This document shows, one piece after another, positions 2,141-8,584 of a stretch of 21,852 nt of DNA. The notes under the pieces were generated by a model. The model saw nothing but the letters and a program-made list of their open reading frames with translations, was not told the origin of the DNA and ran no database searches. The position numbers and the translations under genes were made by a program. The DNA comes from a virus: the IMG/VR virus record IMGVR_UViG_3300046000_006705, positions 1 through 21,852 of that record; one strand, written 5' to 3'. Every line of letters starts with the position of its first letter. The first letter of the stretch is position 1.

Positions 2141-2521
2141 ATGCGAGCCTCACTCAAATCATTGCTTATAGATGTCTGCAAAACGCGCTGCGTGCCGCTG
2201 GAGGACGTTGTCGGCCGCGCCGGCGAGCGTCTGATCGTCGAGGCGCGGCGGGAGTTCGTAAAGCGCGCGCGTCGTGATCTGAAGATGTCCTATCCTGTGA
2301 TCGGCCGCGCCATTAACCGCGACCACACAACCGCGCTGCATCTCTACCGGACGGAGCCGGTGCTGCTGAAGTCGCAGACGGGTGCGCTGTCGCGTCGGGA
2401 GAAGGACGTGCTAGCGCTCATGAAGATGGGCTATGGCCGCGCGCGGATCGCAGCGCATCTGAACATCTCAGAGGATACGGTTGGCCGTTACATGCGCAGC
2501 ATCAAGGCCAAGGGCCAATGA
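2141..2521 (+). CDS. Double-HTH protein: DnaA domain IV-like plus LuxR-type HTH
   Basis: A 126-residue DNA-binding protein with two helix-turn-helix regions. Residues about 18-70 resemble the DNA-binding domain IV of DnaA: a helix rich in R/E, then SYPVIGRAINRDHTTALH. The RDHTT stretch (60-64) matches the DnaA signature that reads the origin box. Residues about 83-124 resemble a LuxR/GerE HTH (LSRREKDVLALM...RIAAHLNISEDTVGRYMRSI). No AAA+ ATPase domain is present, so it is not a full initiator. It may guide replication or transcription of the phage. GGAGGAAGA precedes ATG 2141, and the stop overlaps the polymerase start (ATGA). The domain calls rest on motif reading. Confidence 0.82.
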   Translation: MRASLKSLLIDVCKTRCVPLEDVVGRAGERLIVEARREFVKRARRDLKMSYPVIGRAINRDHTTALHLYRTEPVLLKSQTGALSRREKDVLALMKMGYGRARIAAHLNISEDTVGRYMRSIKAKGQ

Positions 2522-4413
2522 CTGTCTGGTTGGATTTTGAGACTGCCTCCGAGTGCGATCTGAAGACAGCCGGCGTCTATAACTATGCGAAGCATCCGTC
2601 GACGCGGGTGCTCTGCATGGCCTACGCTGTCGATGACGACGAGGTGCAGGTCTGGACGCCCGGCCAGCCGTTTCCGCGGCATATCCTGTCGCACCAGATT
2701 CGGGCGCACAACGCCGCCTTCGAGCGGCTGATCTTCTGGCATGTGCTGAACATGCCGTTCCTGAACAACTTCTACTGCACCGCTGCGCAGGCGCGAGCGA
2801 ATTGTGCGCCGGGGAGTCTGGAAGATGTGGGGAGATTTGCGGGTTCAAGTATGCGCAAGGATCATCGTGGCGCTTATCTGGTTCGCGCTTGCTGCCTGCC
2901 TCCCTTCAGGACCGATCTATTACCGGAACTTATGGAATACTGCGCTCAGGACGTCCGAACCATGCGGGCCGTCAGCCAGTCCATGCGCGAACTGACCGAG
3001 GAAGAGCTGGAGGATTACCATGTTAACGAGCGCATTAATGATCGTGGCGTTCGCGTTGATGTTGATCTATGCCGCGCGGCGGTCGGTTACGCGGATAAAG
3101 AGCTTCAAGAGATACAGGACACCGTCCGCGAGATCACAGGTGGTCAGATTCAGTCGGTAAGAAGTCCGCGTATGCGTGAATGGGTCGCCGCGAGGCTTGG
3201 CCCGCAGGCGCTGAAGCTGATGGACAAGGACGGAAAGCAATCTATCGACAAGACCGTGCGCGCCAATCTGCTGGCGTTCGAAGACCCGGAGGAGGTGCCG
3301 CCCGATGTCAGAGAAGTTATCCAGTGTGCTGACGACCTGTGGGCGTCTTCTGTTGCGAAATTTGCCCGCCTTTGGAATCTTGCTGGGGATGACGCTCGCG
3401 TTCGCGGCGCTTTCGTATTCGCTGGTGGATCTGCTACGGGGCGCGCTTCGTCTTACGGAGCCCAGGTCCACAATTTCACGCGCAAATGCGCCGCTGAGCC
3501 CAAACGGGTGCGACAGGCAATGGTGCGAGGCCACGCCATCGTGCCAGCATTTGGGCGGCGCGTTACAGACGTATTGCGTGGTATGCTGCGGCCCGCTCTG
3601 ATCCCTGCTGAGGGCAAGAAGCTGGTTGTGGCCGACTGGTCCGCCATCGAGGGCCGCGTCAACCCGTGGCTGTCCGGCCGCGGCGACAACACCAAGCTAC
3701 AGCAATTCCGGGACGGACTGGATGTCTACAAGGTGAACGCCGCCGAGACGTTCCGGACGACCTACGACAAGGTGACGAAGGACCAGCGGCAGGTCGGCAA
3801 GGTGCAGGAGCTGGCCTGCGGGTTCGGCGGCGGCGTCGGGGCGTTCGACGCTATGGGCCGCGCCTACGGTCTCACGCTGCCCGAGGACGAGGCCCGCCGC
3901 ATGGTCAACGCATGGCGCCGCGCGAACGAGTGGGCCGTGCCGTTCTGGGAGGAGCTGGAGTCGGCCTATACGCGGGCGGTGCGCAATCCGGGCAAGCAGT
4001 TTCAGGCCGGCCGGATTGTTTACCTTCATGATGGCAAGCATCTTTGGTATGCTCTGCCTTCCGGCCGCGTGCTTTGCTACCCTTACGCGAAGTTTGAAGA
4101 CGATGCGATTACCTACGCCAAGGCGGCGTGGAAGCCCGCAGCCGACGCCAAAGAGTGGCCCCGAGCGCGGTTGTGGCGCGGTCTGGCCTGCGAGAACGTC
4201 ACACAGGCGACCGCCCATGACCTTCTACGTGAGGCTTTGCGCCGTCTTGATGACGTGGTTCTGCATGTTCATGACGAGATCGTTCTTGAGACTGATCGGC
4301 CTGAAGAGGCGCTCGAAGAATTGCAGAAGGTTATGACAACGCCCCCGGCATGGGCTGCGGGGCTGCCGCTGGACGCAGAAGCCAGCATTATGGACAGATA
4401 CGGGAAAGGGTAA
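2518..4413 (+). CDS. Family A DNA polymerase with 3'-5' exonuclease domain
   Basis: A replicative polymerase of 631 residues. The proofreading domain shows Exo I D6-x-E8 (WLDFETAS), Exo II around N65-x2-F68 (HNAAFE), and Exo III Y141-x3-D145 (YCAQD). The polymerase domain shows motif A D373 (VADWSAIEGR), motif B R424/K428 (RQVGKVQELACGFGGG) and motif C H585-D586-E587 (HVHDE). All expected catalytic residues are present, so it should be active and high fidelity. It lacks a 5'-3' exonuclease domain, as usual for phage enzymes. Its start overlaps the stop of the double-HTH gene by four bases. Third-position GC switches between high and low in blocks along the gene, which suggests recombination. 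Confidence 0.96.
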   Translation: MTVWLDFETASECDLKTAGVYNYAKHPSTRVLCMAYAVDDDEVQVWTPGQPFPRHILSHQIRAHNAAFERLIFWHVLNMPFLNNFYCTAAQARANCAPGSLEDVGRFAGSSMRKDHRGAYLVRACCLPPFRTDLLPELMEYCAQDVRTMRAVSQSMRELTEEELEDYHVNERINDRGVRVDVDLCRAAVGYADKELQEIQDTVREITGGQIQSVRSPRMREWVAARLGPQALKLMDKDGKQSIDKTVRANLLAFEDPEEVPPDVREVIQCADDLWASSVAKFARLWNLAGDDARVRGAFVFAGGSATGRASSYGAQVHNFTRKCAAEPKRVRQAMVRGHAIVPAFGRRVTDVLRGMLRPALIPAEGKKLVVADWSAIEGRVNPWLSGRGDNTKLQQFRDGLDVYKVNAAETFRTTYDKVTKDQRQVGKVQELACGFGGGVGAFDAMGRAYGLTLPEDEARRMVNAWRRANEWAVPFWEELESAYTRAVRNPGKQFQAGRIVYLHDGKHLWYALPSGRVLCYPYAKFEDDAITYAKAAWKPAADAKEWPRARLWRGLACENVTQATAHDLLREALRRLDDVVLHVHDEIVLETDRPEEALEELQKVMTTPPAWAAGLPLDAEASIMDRYGKG

Positions 4414-4416
4414 GGA

Positions 4417-4794
4417 ATGGCTAGTTGGCTACAGATACCGAAATATGAAGGTGCTTACGAAGCCAGCGAGCGCGGGCAGATTAGGTCTGTGGCACGCGTA
4501 GTGAATTGGGGAAGGCACGGTAGCACACGTTATAGAGCCAGAGAGTTGAAACAGTTCAAATCGGAGAATGGGTATTGGTGCGTAAAGCTGTCGCTGCGAG
4601 GGTCGTCAAGAACTGAGTATGTCCACGAACTTATCTTGCGATCGTTTATCGGCCCGCGTCCCGTCATAAAAGAAACCAGTGCGATTAGGCATTTGGACGG
4701 GGATAAGTCGAACAACTATCTATCCAACCTTTTGTATGGGACCGCACGAGAGAACGCTCTTGACTATCAAAAACATAAGCGGGTGTCGAAATGA
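4417..4794 (+). CDS. HNH homing endonuclease with NUMOD4 motif
   Basis: A 125-residue free-standing homing endonuclease. The N-terminus carries a NUMOD4-type motif (W4 ... YEGAYEASERGQIRSV), which binds DNA. The HNH core is visible as H70 (VHELILRSF), H92 with DGDKSNN at 94-100, and SNL with N104. Such enzymes cut DNA at a specific site and spread their own gene, often residing beside polymerase genes as here. It sits three bases after the polymerase stop and overlaps the next gene by ATGA. Codon use is clearly AT-richer than in the polymerase, consistent with insertion from elsewhere. TAAGGA before ATG 4417 is a weak ribosome-binding site. Confidence 0.92.
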   Translation: MASWLQIPKYEGAYEASERGQIRSVARVVNWGRHGSTRYRARELKQFKSENGYWCVKLSLRGSSRTEYVHELILRSFIGPRPVIKETSAIRHLDGDKSNNYLSNLLYGTARENALDYQKHKRVSK

Positions 4795-5489
4795 AACAGC
4801 TATTCACATTCCATAACAGTATATGGGACACGCTGAGTTTCAATGCGGTTTATGATACCGCTACGGATCTCAAGGAATTAGATCTGTTGAAACCCCCCTA
4901 TGATGAGTTTGATATACAAGCCACGCTAGACAAAAAAATTCTGACCATGATTTTTATCGGCGTTCCTTCAGACCTGGACCCTCCGGTCAGAACATTCACG
5001 TTTCGATATACCTATAATATGAAAGACGGTTCCGTATGGGAGCGCGTTAAACTAGGCGATAAATTTTATTCCATAGATCAGTTAGCAACTATGGCCAGTA
5101 AAGACGGCGGCTTAAACCGCGAAGACTGCGTCAAAGAAGTGGAACATATATCTATGTTCTTGCTTACGTCGCTTATGGTTTTGCTGGCCACCAAAAACGC
5201 TCAGAAGACAACAGAGAAGATTAAAAAGCACGGGCCGAAAAGCCGTAAGCGTCCGCGTGAGTATGATTACATCACGACCATAAAGATCGGCAAGATCACC
5301 GAGACGCAACGCGGGGATGGCGACGGACAGTCGTCCGTGCGCCCGCATTTGCGCCGCGGTCACATCCGCAACCAGCGCGTCGGCAAGGGCCTGTCTGAGG
5401 TCAAGCCAATCTTCATTCAACCGTGCTTCATCAATGCCGATGAGAGCTGGATCAATAATCAACGCAAAGAATATCGCATAGCCGCGTGA
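4791..5489 (+). CDS. AcrVA2-like protein, candidate anti-CRISPR or relative
   Basis: A 232-residue protein whose C-terminal part carries RPHLRRGHIR (184-193) and, about 15 residues on, IFIQPCFINADE (207-218). From memory this pattern, RPHxRRxHx then PxF(V/I)N, matches the C-terminus of AcrVA2. That protein blocks Cas12a production, and its relatives are widespread in phages and plasmids. A Leu-rich helix (147-160) and a basic linker before the motif also fit that layout. The first 140 residues are AT-richer in codon use and unlike anything I recognise. It overlaps the HNH gene by ATGA. The family link is moderately supported; anti-CRISPR activity is not shown, since many relatives are untested. 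Confidence 0.68.
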   Translation: MKQLFTFHNSIWDTLSFNAVYDTATDLKELDLLKPPYDEFDIQATLDKKILTMIFIGVPSDLDPPVRTFTFRYTYNMKDGSVWERVKLGDKFYSIDQLATMASKDGGLNREDCVKEVEHISMFLLTSLMVLLATKNAQKTTEKIKKHGPKSRKRPREYDYITTIKIGKITETQRGDGDGQSSVRPHLRRGHIRNQRVGKGLSEVKPIFIQPCFINADESWINNQRKEYRIAA

Positions 5490-5496
5490 GGAAACG

Positions 5497-7797
5497 ATGA
5501 TCGAATATCTTTTAGGTCTGGCGCAAGAGGGCGAGACGCTCCTGTTCGTGCAACAGAAGCCCGTCATGCGCAACGGTGAGCAGCAGTATCACGCGGACGG
5601 GAGCCCGAAGTATACCTACCCCGCGTTCCGGCCCGGCTCGAAGCCGCTGAAGGGCGCCACCTACGTCAACACCGGAATCTTTATCGAAGACCGGCTGAAG
5701 GCTAACTTTTCCGCCAGCAAGGACAACATCGAACACGTCGCGTTTCTGCCGTTGGACGACATCGGCACGAAGTCGAAGACGCCTGATCTGCAACCAACAT
5801 GGAAGATGGAAACAAGCCCCGGCAACTATCAGTGGGGCTATGTTTTCCGCGAGCAGCCGACCAAGGCCGCTTACTGCGCTGCGATCAATGCTATCGCCGC
5901 GGCGGGCTTTACCGATCCGGGCGCAACCAACCCGGTGCGCAACATCCGGCTGCCGGGTTCCGTCAATCTAAAGCCGGGGCGGGACGCTTTCGAGGCGAGA
6001 CTTGTCGAGTTCAATCAAGGGCTGGAGTATACTCTTGAAGAAATCTGTGAAGCATTGGGCGTTACGCCGTTTGAAGAGAGCGCGTCGGCGCCGTCGATCC
6101 GTGTCAAGGATACTGGTAACGACAGCGTCCTGCGATGGCTGTCGGACAACGGACACGTCCTTGAACCAGCTAATAGTTCAGGTTGGGTGGGTGTTGTTTG
6201 CCCAAATGCCCACGAACACACTGACGGCACACTAGGCGGCCGGTATCTGCCCGCGACGCGCGCCTATTGCTGCTACCACGGCCACTGTGAACATATCCAC
6301 AGCGCCGAGTTCCTTAAATGGGTGTGCGACAACGGCGGCCCGCAGGCCGAGCATGGGCTGCGCGACGACCTGACGGCCGGCGTCATGTCTGAGGCGCTCT
6401 CAAAAATCAAGCCCAACGAGAAGTTCACCGACAAGGCGCGAGAAGAGATCGAGCGCGTCAACCGCGAAGAAGCCGCCCGTGTAGACCGCACGCAATGGTT
6501 CAACCGCTTCGCCTATGTGATGTCGGACGATGGCTATTTCGACCTGACGACCCGGCAGGAGATCAGCCGCCCGGTTTTCAACGCGATCTATCGCCATCAA
6601 TATTGCCAGTCGCGTCACCACGGCCGCAAGGTTGAGGCGGCGACGTGGTATGACGAGCAGCGTCAGGACTGCGGCGGCCGGGCGCTCGCCGGTATCACCT
6701 ACGCGCCGGGCGAGACCGAGATCGTCACCCGCGACGGGCTCGTGTATGGCAACAAATGGGTCAACGCACGGCCGCAGGTCGAGGGCGGCGGCGACGTCAC
6801 CAGGTGGCTGGACCATGCGGCCGTCCTGCTCCCCGACGATGACGAGCGCCGGCACGTCCTTGATGTTATGGCCTTCAAGGTTCAAAACCCGAACGTCAAG
6901 ATCAACCATGCCGTGCTGCACGGCGGCGACGAGGGCTGCGGCAAGGATACGCTCTGGGCGCCGTTCATCTGGGCCGTGTGCGGGCCGTTCCTGAAAAACC
7001 GCGGGATTATCGATTCCGACGGGCTCGCCGGCCAGTGGGGCTATGCTCTTGAGAGCGAAATCCTGATCCTGAACGAATTGCGAGAGCCGGAGGCGAAGGA
7101 GCGTCGGGCGCTCGCCAACCGGCTTAAGCCGATCATCGCCGCCCCGCCGGAAACTCTGACCGTCAACCGTAAGAGCCTGCACCCATATGAGGCGCTCAAC
7201 CGCGTTTTTGTGCTGGCCTTCACCAATGACCCTGTGCCGATCACGTTGCCGTCGCAGGATCGCCGCTGGTTCTGCGTATGGTCTTATGCCGATCGTATGA
7301 CGCCGCGGGAGGCCGACGCCATGTGGAACTGGTATCGATCGGGCGGTTACGAGGCCATCGCAAGCTGGCTGCTGGCGCGGGATGTGAGCGCCTTCAACCC
7401 GGCTGCCGCGCCGCCCCTGACTGACTTCAAGCAGTCAATGATCGAACACGGCATGTCGTCGGCGGAATCGTGGATCGTCTCCCGTATCGAGGCGCGCAAG
7501 GAGCCCTTCGACCGCGGTGTCATGGGCTCGCCGCTGCACTCGGCGGTCGATTATTTGAGCGACAAGAGGCCGCAAGGCGCAACCTTCAAAGTCGTGCAAC
7601 CGGCGCTCCTGCACGCCCTGAAAGAAGCCGGCTGGCGCGATATGGGCCGGATCGCCTCCGCGCGTCACGCGACCAAAAAGGCGTGCTGGGCGGCCCCCTG
7701 GCTGCTCGCGGCCGGAGCGACCAAGAGCCAACTCCGGGACTTGCTGGAAGATGCGCCTGAAGCGCCGCCCGTGAACGTGGTCAACCTAGTCAAATAG
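5497..7797 (+). CDS. Primase-helicase: AEP-type primase domain plus SF3/D5 helicase
   Basis: A 766-residue replication protein. The N-terminal part (about 60-190) resembles RepB/AEP-type primases: PLDDIG with D87-D88, and NIRLPGSVNLK at 149-159. A Cys/His cluster follows, with C235, H239, C258, H261 and C264, likely binding zinc. The C-terminal domain is a D5/SF3 helicase (DUF5906 type): Walker A HGGDEGCGKDT with K483, Walker B ILILNE with E527, sensor-1 FTND with N577, and a possible arginine finger in SQDRRW (589-590). It would prime and unwind DNA for the phage polymerase. GTGAGGAAAC precedes ATG 5497. The two-domain layout is clear; primase activity is inferred. Confidence 0.92.
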   Translation: MIEYLLGLAQEGETLLFVQQKPVMRNGEQQYHADGSPKYTYPAFRPGSKPLKGATYVNTGIFIEDRLKANFSASKDNIEHVAFLPLDDIGTKSKTPDLQPTWKMETSPGNYQWGYVFREQPTKAAYCAAINAIAAAGFTDPGATNPVRNIRLPGSVNLKPGRDAFEARLVEFNQGLEYTLEEICEALGVTPFEESASAPSIRVKDTGNDSVLRWLSDNGHVLEPANSSGWVGVVCPNAHEHTDGTLGGRYLPATRAYCCYHGHCEHIHSAEFLKWVCDNGGPQAEHGLRDDLTAGVMSEALSKIKPNEKFTDKAREEIERVNREEAARVDRTQWFNRFAYVMSDDGYFDLTTRQEISRPVFNAIYRHQYCQSRHHGRKVEAATWYDEQRQDCGGRALAGITYAPGETEIVTRDGLVYGNKWVNARPQVEGGGDVTRWLDHAAVLLPDDDERRHVLDVMAFKVQNPNVKINHAVLHGGDEGCGKDTLWAPFIWAVCGPFLKNRGIIDSDGLAGQWGYALESEILILNELREPEAKERRALANRLKPIIAAPPETLTVNRKSLHPYEALNRVFVLAFTNDPVPITLPSQDRRWFCVWSYADRMTPREADAMWNWYRSGGYEAIASWLLARDVSAFNPAAAPPLTDFKQSMIEHGMSSAESWIVSRIEARKEPFDRGVMGSPLHSAVDYLSDKRPQGATFKVVQPALLHALKEAGWRDMGRIASARHATKKACWAAPWLLAAGATKSQLRDLLEDAPEAPPVNVVNLVK

Positions 7798-8019: not shown

Positions 8020-8253
8020 TTCTGGATTTGCTGATTTGCCTCGCAGCATTGCTGCTAGAATTTGTGTGCGACCGTCCTCATCGACGTGCGCCAATGCCTC
8101 TTCGAGCGCGCGCCGTAGCCTGTCGCTTTCGTCGATAGCAAATTTAATCGTGTGCTGCGCACGATCGCGGGCTTCGTTATAGCCGGCGAGATAGGCGCGT
8201 GTTACTTCTTCCTGTAGCTGCTTTATGCGCTGCTCAAATTCGGGTTTACCCAT
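7981..8253 (-). CDS. Small coiled-coil protein, unknown function (90 aa)
   Basis: Not recognised. The product is charged and nearly all helical (RIKQLQEEVTRAYLAGYNEA, then SDRLRRALEEALAHV), with heptad-like spacing that suggests a coiled-coil dimer, and a polar C-terminal tail. A strong ribosome-binding site, GGAGGG, lies seven bases before the start, and the gene fills a stretch with no other plausible gene, so I consider it real. Its ATG shares the CATG at 8251-8254 with the start of the rightward neighbour. It lies beyond the terminator of the larger leftward block, so it needs its own promoter. Confidence 0.7.
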   Translation of the reverse strand: MGKPEFEQRIKQLQEEVTRAYLAGYNEARDRAQHTIKFAIDESDRLRRALEEALAHVDEDGRTQILAAMLRGKSANPESFEQPYCQNRDE

Positions 8254-8584
8254 GCCAAAACCCTCCGGTCGAATTGACTATCTTAACACCCCGCCTGCGT
8301 CCAGAGACCCTATTGCGGAGCTTTTGGGTAAGTCGCCAGAGCAACAGGATTTCTGGAATCGCGTTAGTGCGTTCCATTCCTCGCAAGATTATAGCGGTCT
8401 TGACGACACTGGCGTCGGTATAGACGCCTATCTGCGCGAGGAAGAAAGACGACAACGGCTCTTATCCTATTTGCGGCCCTATCTTGAAGCGACCGGGCTC
8501 TACCAAAACGCGATGGCGCCGCCACCACAGAATATGATGCGCGGGATGTTCGGTCTCCGACAAAGAAACGCCCGGCCTTTTTAG
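8252..8584 (+). CDS. Unknown phage protein (110 aa)
   Basis: Not recognised. It begins MPKPSGRIDYLNTP, then has a charged helical centre (DAYLREEERRQRLLSYLRPYL), and ends in a Met/Pro-rich, basic tail (MAPPPQNMMRGMFGLRQRN). No membrane segment is seen. The stop codon lies in the loop of the hairpin at 8570-8593, which fits a gene ending at its own terminator. The upstream ribosome-binding site is poor (GGGTTT), a weakness of this call. Its start codon overlaps, on the opposite strand, the start of the coiled-coil gene. Confidence 0.62.
   Translation: MPKPSGRIDYLNTPPASRDPIAELLGKSPEQQDFWNRVSAFHSSQDYSGLDDTGVGIDAYLREEERRQRLLSYLRPYLEATGLYQNAMAPPPQNMMRGMFGLRQRNARPF

Follow-up and report, generated by a model that had tools for sequence, protein, structure and literature searches.

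A compact phage protein with a tail homologous to AcrVA2 and FinQ and a head exchanged between near-identical phages

The window, by which we mean the whole 21,852-nt stretch analysed here and which is an entire 21.9-kb virus record encoding a P22-like portal, carries next to its replication genes a gene for a two-part protein whose conserved basic tail is homologous, by sequence profile, to the C-terminus of the anti-CRISPR protein AcrVA2 and of the plasmid protein FinQ (Table 1). The tail and the variable head behave as modules, and the head is a cassette that is replaced between closely related phages. We regard it as an evenly balanced proposition that the protein is a compact member of an AcrVA2/FinQ superfamily, an early phage protein that probably lowers one specific mRNA. 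One ground for this reading is that the two studied members, AcrVA2 and FinQ, are both reported to lower the mRNA of a target.

Table 1. Positions in the window of the AcrVA2/FinQ-type gene, its two parts and its neighbours.
Feature	Position	Strand	Remarks
Family A DNA polymerase	2518..4413	+	Upstream neighbour; Pfam DNA_pol_A 2.2e-17, phrog_17 3.9e-95
NUMOD4/HNH homing-type endonuclease	4417..4794	+	NUMOD4 8.5e-11, HNH_3 6.9e-9
AcrVA2/FinQ-type protein gene	4791..5489	+	232 aa; ATGA, a 4-base overlap with the HNH stop
Variable head	4791..5180	+	Codons 1 to ~130; replaced relative to L005
Conserved basic tail	5181..5486	+	Codons ~131-232; homologous to the AcrVA2 and FinQ C-terminus
RepB_primase/DUF5906 (VapE-like) primase-helicase	5497..7797	+	Downstream neighbour; conserved in L001, L003, L005 and L007

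From its N- to its C-terminus the protein is made up of a head, a Leu-rich helix, a basic linker, a YxxTIxIG strand and an RPHxRRGH tail. The head is acidic (pI 4.8), AT-rich and of alpha/beta type plus the Leu-rich helix 'SMFLLTSLMVLLATKN', which is modelled at residues 110-133 and, together with the basic linker (136-160, pI 10.2), lies N-terminal to RPHLRRGHIR (184-193) and IFIQPCFINADE (207-218). This is the arrangement from which a sequence-only reading of the same DNA had proposed AcrVA2, and its remark on an AT-rich first half also holds, with a GC content of 41.9% for codons 1-125 against 54.2% for the rest of the gene and 58.5% for the window. The tail (pI above 10) contains the motifs YITTIKIG, RPHLRRGHIRNQ and IFIQPCFINAD. 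Pfam, NCBIfam and PADLOC contain no model for the protein. We consider the frame to be more than chance, because more than 30 viral contigs carry the gene and because an AcrVA2/FinQ HMM scored 14 of 14 family members at 13-31 bits, whereas none of 700 shuffled sequences exceeded 6.5 bits.

The relation to AcrVA2 emerged from profiles. A family profile of 15 sequences, searched with hmmsearch against all PDB sequences, gave AcrVA2 (7CI1, E 0.007) as its single match, which was reached neither with the window sequence by itself (phmmer against PDB returned noise only) nor with a 4-sequence profile, which found nothing in PDB. Profile-profile comparison by hhalign gave a probability of 97.3-97.4% (E ~1e-11) over 41-49 columns. 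Furthermore, phrog_6160 matches the window protein at 9.3e-4 and its relative L035 at 6.8e-8, and we take phrog_6160 as the AcrVA2 family because a Shewanella phage Y11 protein annotated as AcrVA2 (PMC10846135) has matches both to it (1.1e-58) and to 7CI1 (1.5e-72). Several alignments to the AcrVA2/FinQ HMM begin in the Leu-rich helix (residues 126-234 in L032 and 115-240 in L008), and every AcrVA2/FinQ relative checked has a basic tail (pI 9.3-11.6); alignment A4 of the AcrVA2 family proved too divergent for scanning viral contigs. As judged from these comparisons, homology to AcrVA2 can be relied on for no more than ~45-100 residues at the C-terminus of the window protein, the demonstrably homologous part being put at ~75-100 residues. 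The head aligns collinearly to the AcrVA2 middle domain (MID) only in forced hhalign runs (low-stringency or global) and not significantly.

Structure prediction gave two confident AlphaFold models (pLDDT 83.5 and 83.8, pTM 0.81 and 0.83), and the window-protein model opens with a strand (residues 3-7) that is equivalent to the start of the AcrVA2 MID. Foldseek with the two models found no significant match in PDB, and 7CI1 was absent among the 50 matches listed for either. The earlier assignment to the AcrVA2 family stands in part, for the C-terminal half and by sequence profile. Against the predicted viral structures of BFVD, six matches had E <1e-3, and the matches include a 'putative mycothiosynthase' of Erwinia phage RisingSun (E 1.3e-4) and, more weakly, a protein of Erwinia phage Yoloswag (6e-3), each with a TM-score of ~0.3. 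By name and length these two are the proteins of L038 and L039, which are members of phrog_6160 (3.6e-86 and 3.8e-98, respectively). The BFVD alignments to AcrVA2-family proteins span 283-287 columns but reach a TM-score of only ~0.3, and because of these low scores we hold homology of the head to AcrVA2 to be likely but unproven. The name of the RisingSun protein (gp126, L038:1324-2325) is probably wrong in view of its phrog_6160 match.

An AcrVA2-family protein of Erwinia phage Special G, gp231, is annotated as FinQ, which pointed to finQ of the IncI1 plasmid R621a. FinQ of R621a matches 7CI1 at 1.8e-16 in two segments, the middle domain and the tail, and phrog_6160 at 1.7e-47 over residues 79-350; on the strength of these matches FinQ and AcrVA2 are homologues and form one family. 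The listed finQ (45396-46175) is part of a longer frame that reaches upstream to 46490 (L040:45396-46490, NC_015965.1). YagA, encoded beside the FinO/ProQ gene of R621a, had been suspected as a further relative and was ruled out, its sequence having no RRGH tail. FinQ, a fertility inhibitor, was reportedly sequenced in 1989, its mechanism being left as transcription termination at several sites. PMC8744291, with reference to Ham and Skurray 1989, describes FinQ as a terminator of transcription that acts at multiple sites in F tra and reports that it lowers the transcripts of the F tra operon. Reviews describe the termination as Rho-independent. We found no paper naming both FinQ and anti-CRISPR in the literature searched, a set that lies outside preprints and many subscription papers; the relation may have been noticed earlier.

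The relatives were gathered from viral contigs by protein and DNA patterns, with MW202483.1 in addition, whereas the patterns used found no relative in bacterial or archaeal genome contigs. All relatives have in common a tail, roughly 75-105 residues long, in which hardly any variation is seen (HLRRGH, PxFxNAD and other motifs), and the tail motif RPHxRRGH followed by (hydrophobic)xPxxVNA, present in the window protein, is invariant or nearly so in 25 relatives. Leaving aside the most distant member and L003, which is 99% identical, identity to the window protein is 13-36% in the head and 46-94% in the tail, and in a comparison of all members no other part varies as much as the head. The charge is split in the same way, with a family mean pI of 5.4 for the acidic head and 10.5 for the basic tail. 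The tail is under purifying selection, since the window tail is 85-86% identical in protein to those of L001 and L007, although no more than 17-18 of 40 four-fold sites are the same.

The head is swapped in three phage pairs (window/L005, L025/L026 and L053/L064), in which the flanks are 83-95% identical, codons ~14 to 130 or 155 are replaced by a version that is 32-39% identical, and the tail is 88-99% identical. First, the window and L005 are 92% identical in DNA up to position 4407, in the last codons of a polymerase whose protein is 97% identical; they have no nucleotide match over 4408-5180, where L005 is without the HNH gene and the two heads share 35% protein identity, and from 5181 on they are again 84% identical over 3.1 kb. 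Second, L025 and L026 are 94.3% identical over 2.75 kb up to codon 13, have no match up to codon 155, and are then 95.2% identical over 1.6 kb, so that the AcrVA2-like gene is the only break within the shared 4.8 kb. Third, L053 and L064 are ~83% identical on both sides, with bases 54-381 of the gene having no match. Replacement extends as far as the Leu-rich helix/LATKN motif or into the linker behind it, and the tail is kept. Mosaicism is not unique to this gene, as the window and L005 have further gaps at 1213-1458 and 8225-8561. Recent recombination was considered for the similarity of the window and L005 tails and rejected, since 37 of 45 four-fold sites are identical, which matches flanks of 84-92% identity and therefore fits common descent with the head replaced. 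These replacements in near-identical phages lend support to the earlier suggestion that the protein may belong to the family but have another target. In addition, the HNH gene and the variant head (window:4408-5180) form one block that is absent or replaced in L005, possibly left behind by a homing event in which the flank was co-converted.

A rival reading, based on the surroundings of the gene, is that the protein belongs to the core machinery of replication or recombination, or regulates the polymerase and primase genes next to it (e.g. by tuning translation), and that the tail is just an RNA- or DNA-binding module. The order polymerase, (HNH), AcrVA2-like gene and primase is found in six contigs, and in those without the HNH gene (L001, L005 and L007) the polymerase stop and the start of the AcrVA2-like gene share the 4 bases ATGA, an overlap that would suit such a role. 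Replication or recombination genes adjoin the gene in the lineages examined, and in other lineages it lies near a RuvC-type resolvase and Prim-Pol or near RusA and a YqaJ/RecE exonuclease; from these surroundings the gene appears to be early and replication-linked, yet its neighbours depend on the lineage, which speaks against a fixed replication partner. Among the closest deposited relatives of the window, an uncultured Manatee Spring phage and phage DSL-LC05 (from a gammaproteobacterium), the latter has a portal 70% identical to that of the window but a different replication module, and no match to the gene was found in it. Moreover, replacement of the head while the neighbours stay 92-95% identical would be odd for a core replication partner, and we consider this role unlikely.

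The endonuclease offers a different account of the head itself. The gene does directly follow a homing endonuclease, as the sequence-only reading had it, the ORF upstream matching both NUMOD4 and HNH_3. The window, L003 and L004 alone have the HNH gene, which accompanies the window-type head in three of three contigs, is absent from L001, L005 and L007, and sits inside the block (4408-5180) that differs from L005 and contains the variant head as well. The head difference of the window could on these grounds be mere collateral co-conversion from HNH homing, with no selection for a new target. However, the head is also exchanged in L025/L026, where the clustered gene map shows no HNH gene at this place, and in L053/L064, and it is the most variable part among all members; we therefore think collateral co-conversion quite improbable as the explanation. 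A true anti-CRISPR against Cas12a or another Cas effector, for which the homology of the tail to AcrVA2 and a head exchange befitting an arms race would speak, is in our judgement very doubtful, because the head, the would-be reader of the Cas12a peptide, is not demonstrably homologous and the tail is common to FinQ, a conjugation inhibitor. The label of anti-CRISPR given to the gene earlier thus outruns the evidence, and none of the results obtained here points to Cas12a.

For a protein that lowers a specific mRNA, we propose the following course, of which the tail homology, the modular exchange of head and tail, the charge split and the context are the observed part. In this podovirus-like phage the protein would be expressed alongside the early replication genes. 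AcrVA2 is reported to recognise the nascent peptide LSKT and then to trigger a loss of cas12a mRNA that depends on translation (PMC13131331), and by analogy with this recognition of a nascent N-terminal peptide the head may recognise the target, while the basic tail would bring about destruction of the transcript by engaging the translating ribosome, the mRNA or an RNase. Recombination would swap the target, which may be a gene of host defence or of a competing element; in the window phage this exchange is associated with the HNH gene, and the purpose would be to disarm the host defence or the competitor. Against decay of mRNA stands the description of FinQ as a transcription terminator and not as an mRNA-decay factor. 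More broadly, and with somewhat less than even confidence, we suggest that AcrVA2 and FinQ belong to a large superfamily of proteins from phages and plasmids that act as programmable silencers of mRNA, in which the basic tail would trigger loss of a transcript picked by the exchangeable head. Phages would re-target the protein by head recombination, sometimes with a homing endonuclease, and the window gene would represent an early, replication-linked branch with a target other than Cas12a. If this is true, the translation-dependent mRNA destruction by AcrVA2 is no peculiarity of a single anti-CRISPR but a general activity of a widespread family of mobile elements that includes FinQ, it becomes testable whether FinQ acts through the translation of tra mRNA, and proteins that occur naturally in pairs, alike in the effector tail and unlike in the head, can be used to find what sets the choice of target. 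To us, a superfamily in which AcrVA2 and FinQ are united and heads are exchanged in nature is a more interesting outcome than the anti-CRISPR label.

In L013:2251-3303 (LC567072.1) and more than 190 similar IncI-gamma/K1 plasmid records, a gene beside a FinO-like gene has an RRGHIRR tail like that of the window protein; one in-frame stop codon divides it into ORFs of 180 and 148 aa, and an IS element adjoins it in at least one record (L012). A 446-aa protein of Raoultella plasmid p12CC3_GES-5 (L011:1921-3261) bears the same tail (1.1e-13 with the window-family HMM) on a long N-terminal part that looks unrelated. ORF32 of Lactobacillus phage JCL1032 (L020:2794-3705), an AcrVA2-family protein of a Gram-positive temperate phage encoded between the lysis genes and attP, scores higher with the window-family HMM (6e-10) than any other named phage protein of AcrVA2 type and is a possible bridge.

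Among known systems, the hypothetical protein UOF77670.1 of Podoviridae sp. ctNMl277 (MW202483.1) is 54% identical to the window protein over the full length and is encoded in the same place, between a DNA polymerase and a VapE-like primase, although MW202483.1 has no HNH gene and the head is only ~29% identical. The best PHROG match is phrog_15934 (7.4e-11, residues 91-213), which comprises actinophage proteins such as gp29 of Corynebacterium phage phi16 and has the RGHWRQQRVGPG tail in common with the window protein, in contrast to a different head and an RGH variant of the tail. AcrVA2 of Moraxella (PDB 7CI1/7CI2; phrog_6160), with homologues in Moraxella phage Mcat and Shewanella phage Y11, has like the window protein a Leu-rich helix, a linker, a (Y)xIG strand, RPHxRRGH(W/I) and a final xxPxxVNA strand, and both are phage-borne with a basic tail. 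The window protein differs from it in its length (232 aa against ~323-358), in having no counterpart of the ~95-residue helical N-terminal domain (domain borders taken from the AcrVA2-type ORF43; PMC10846135), in a tail that reads RRGHIRNQ instead of RRGHWHxYW, and in a head that, unlike the tail, has no significant alignment to AcrVA2. FinQ is plasmid-borne and longer, a full AcrVA2-type protein, and it is only the tail, of the same family in both, that FinQ and the window protein demonstrably have in common.
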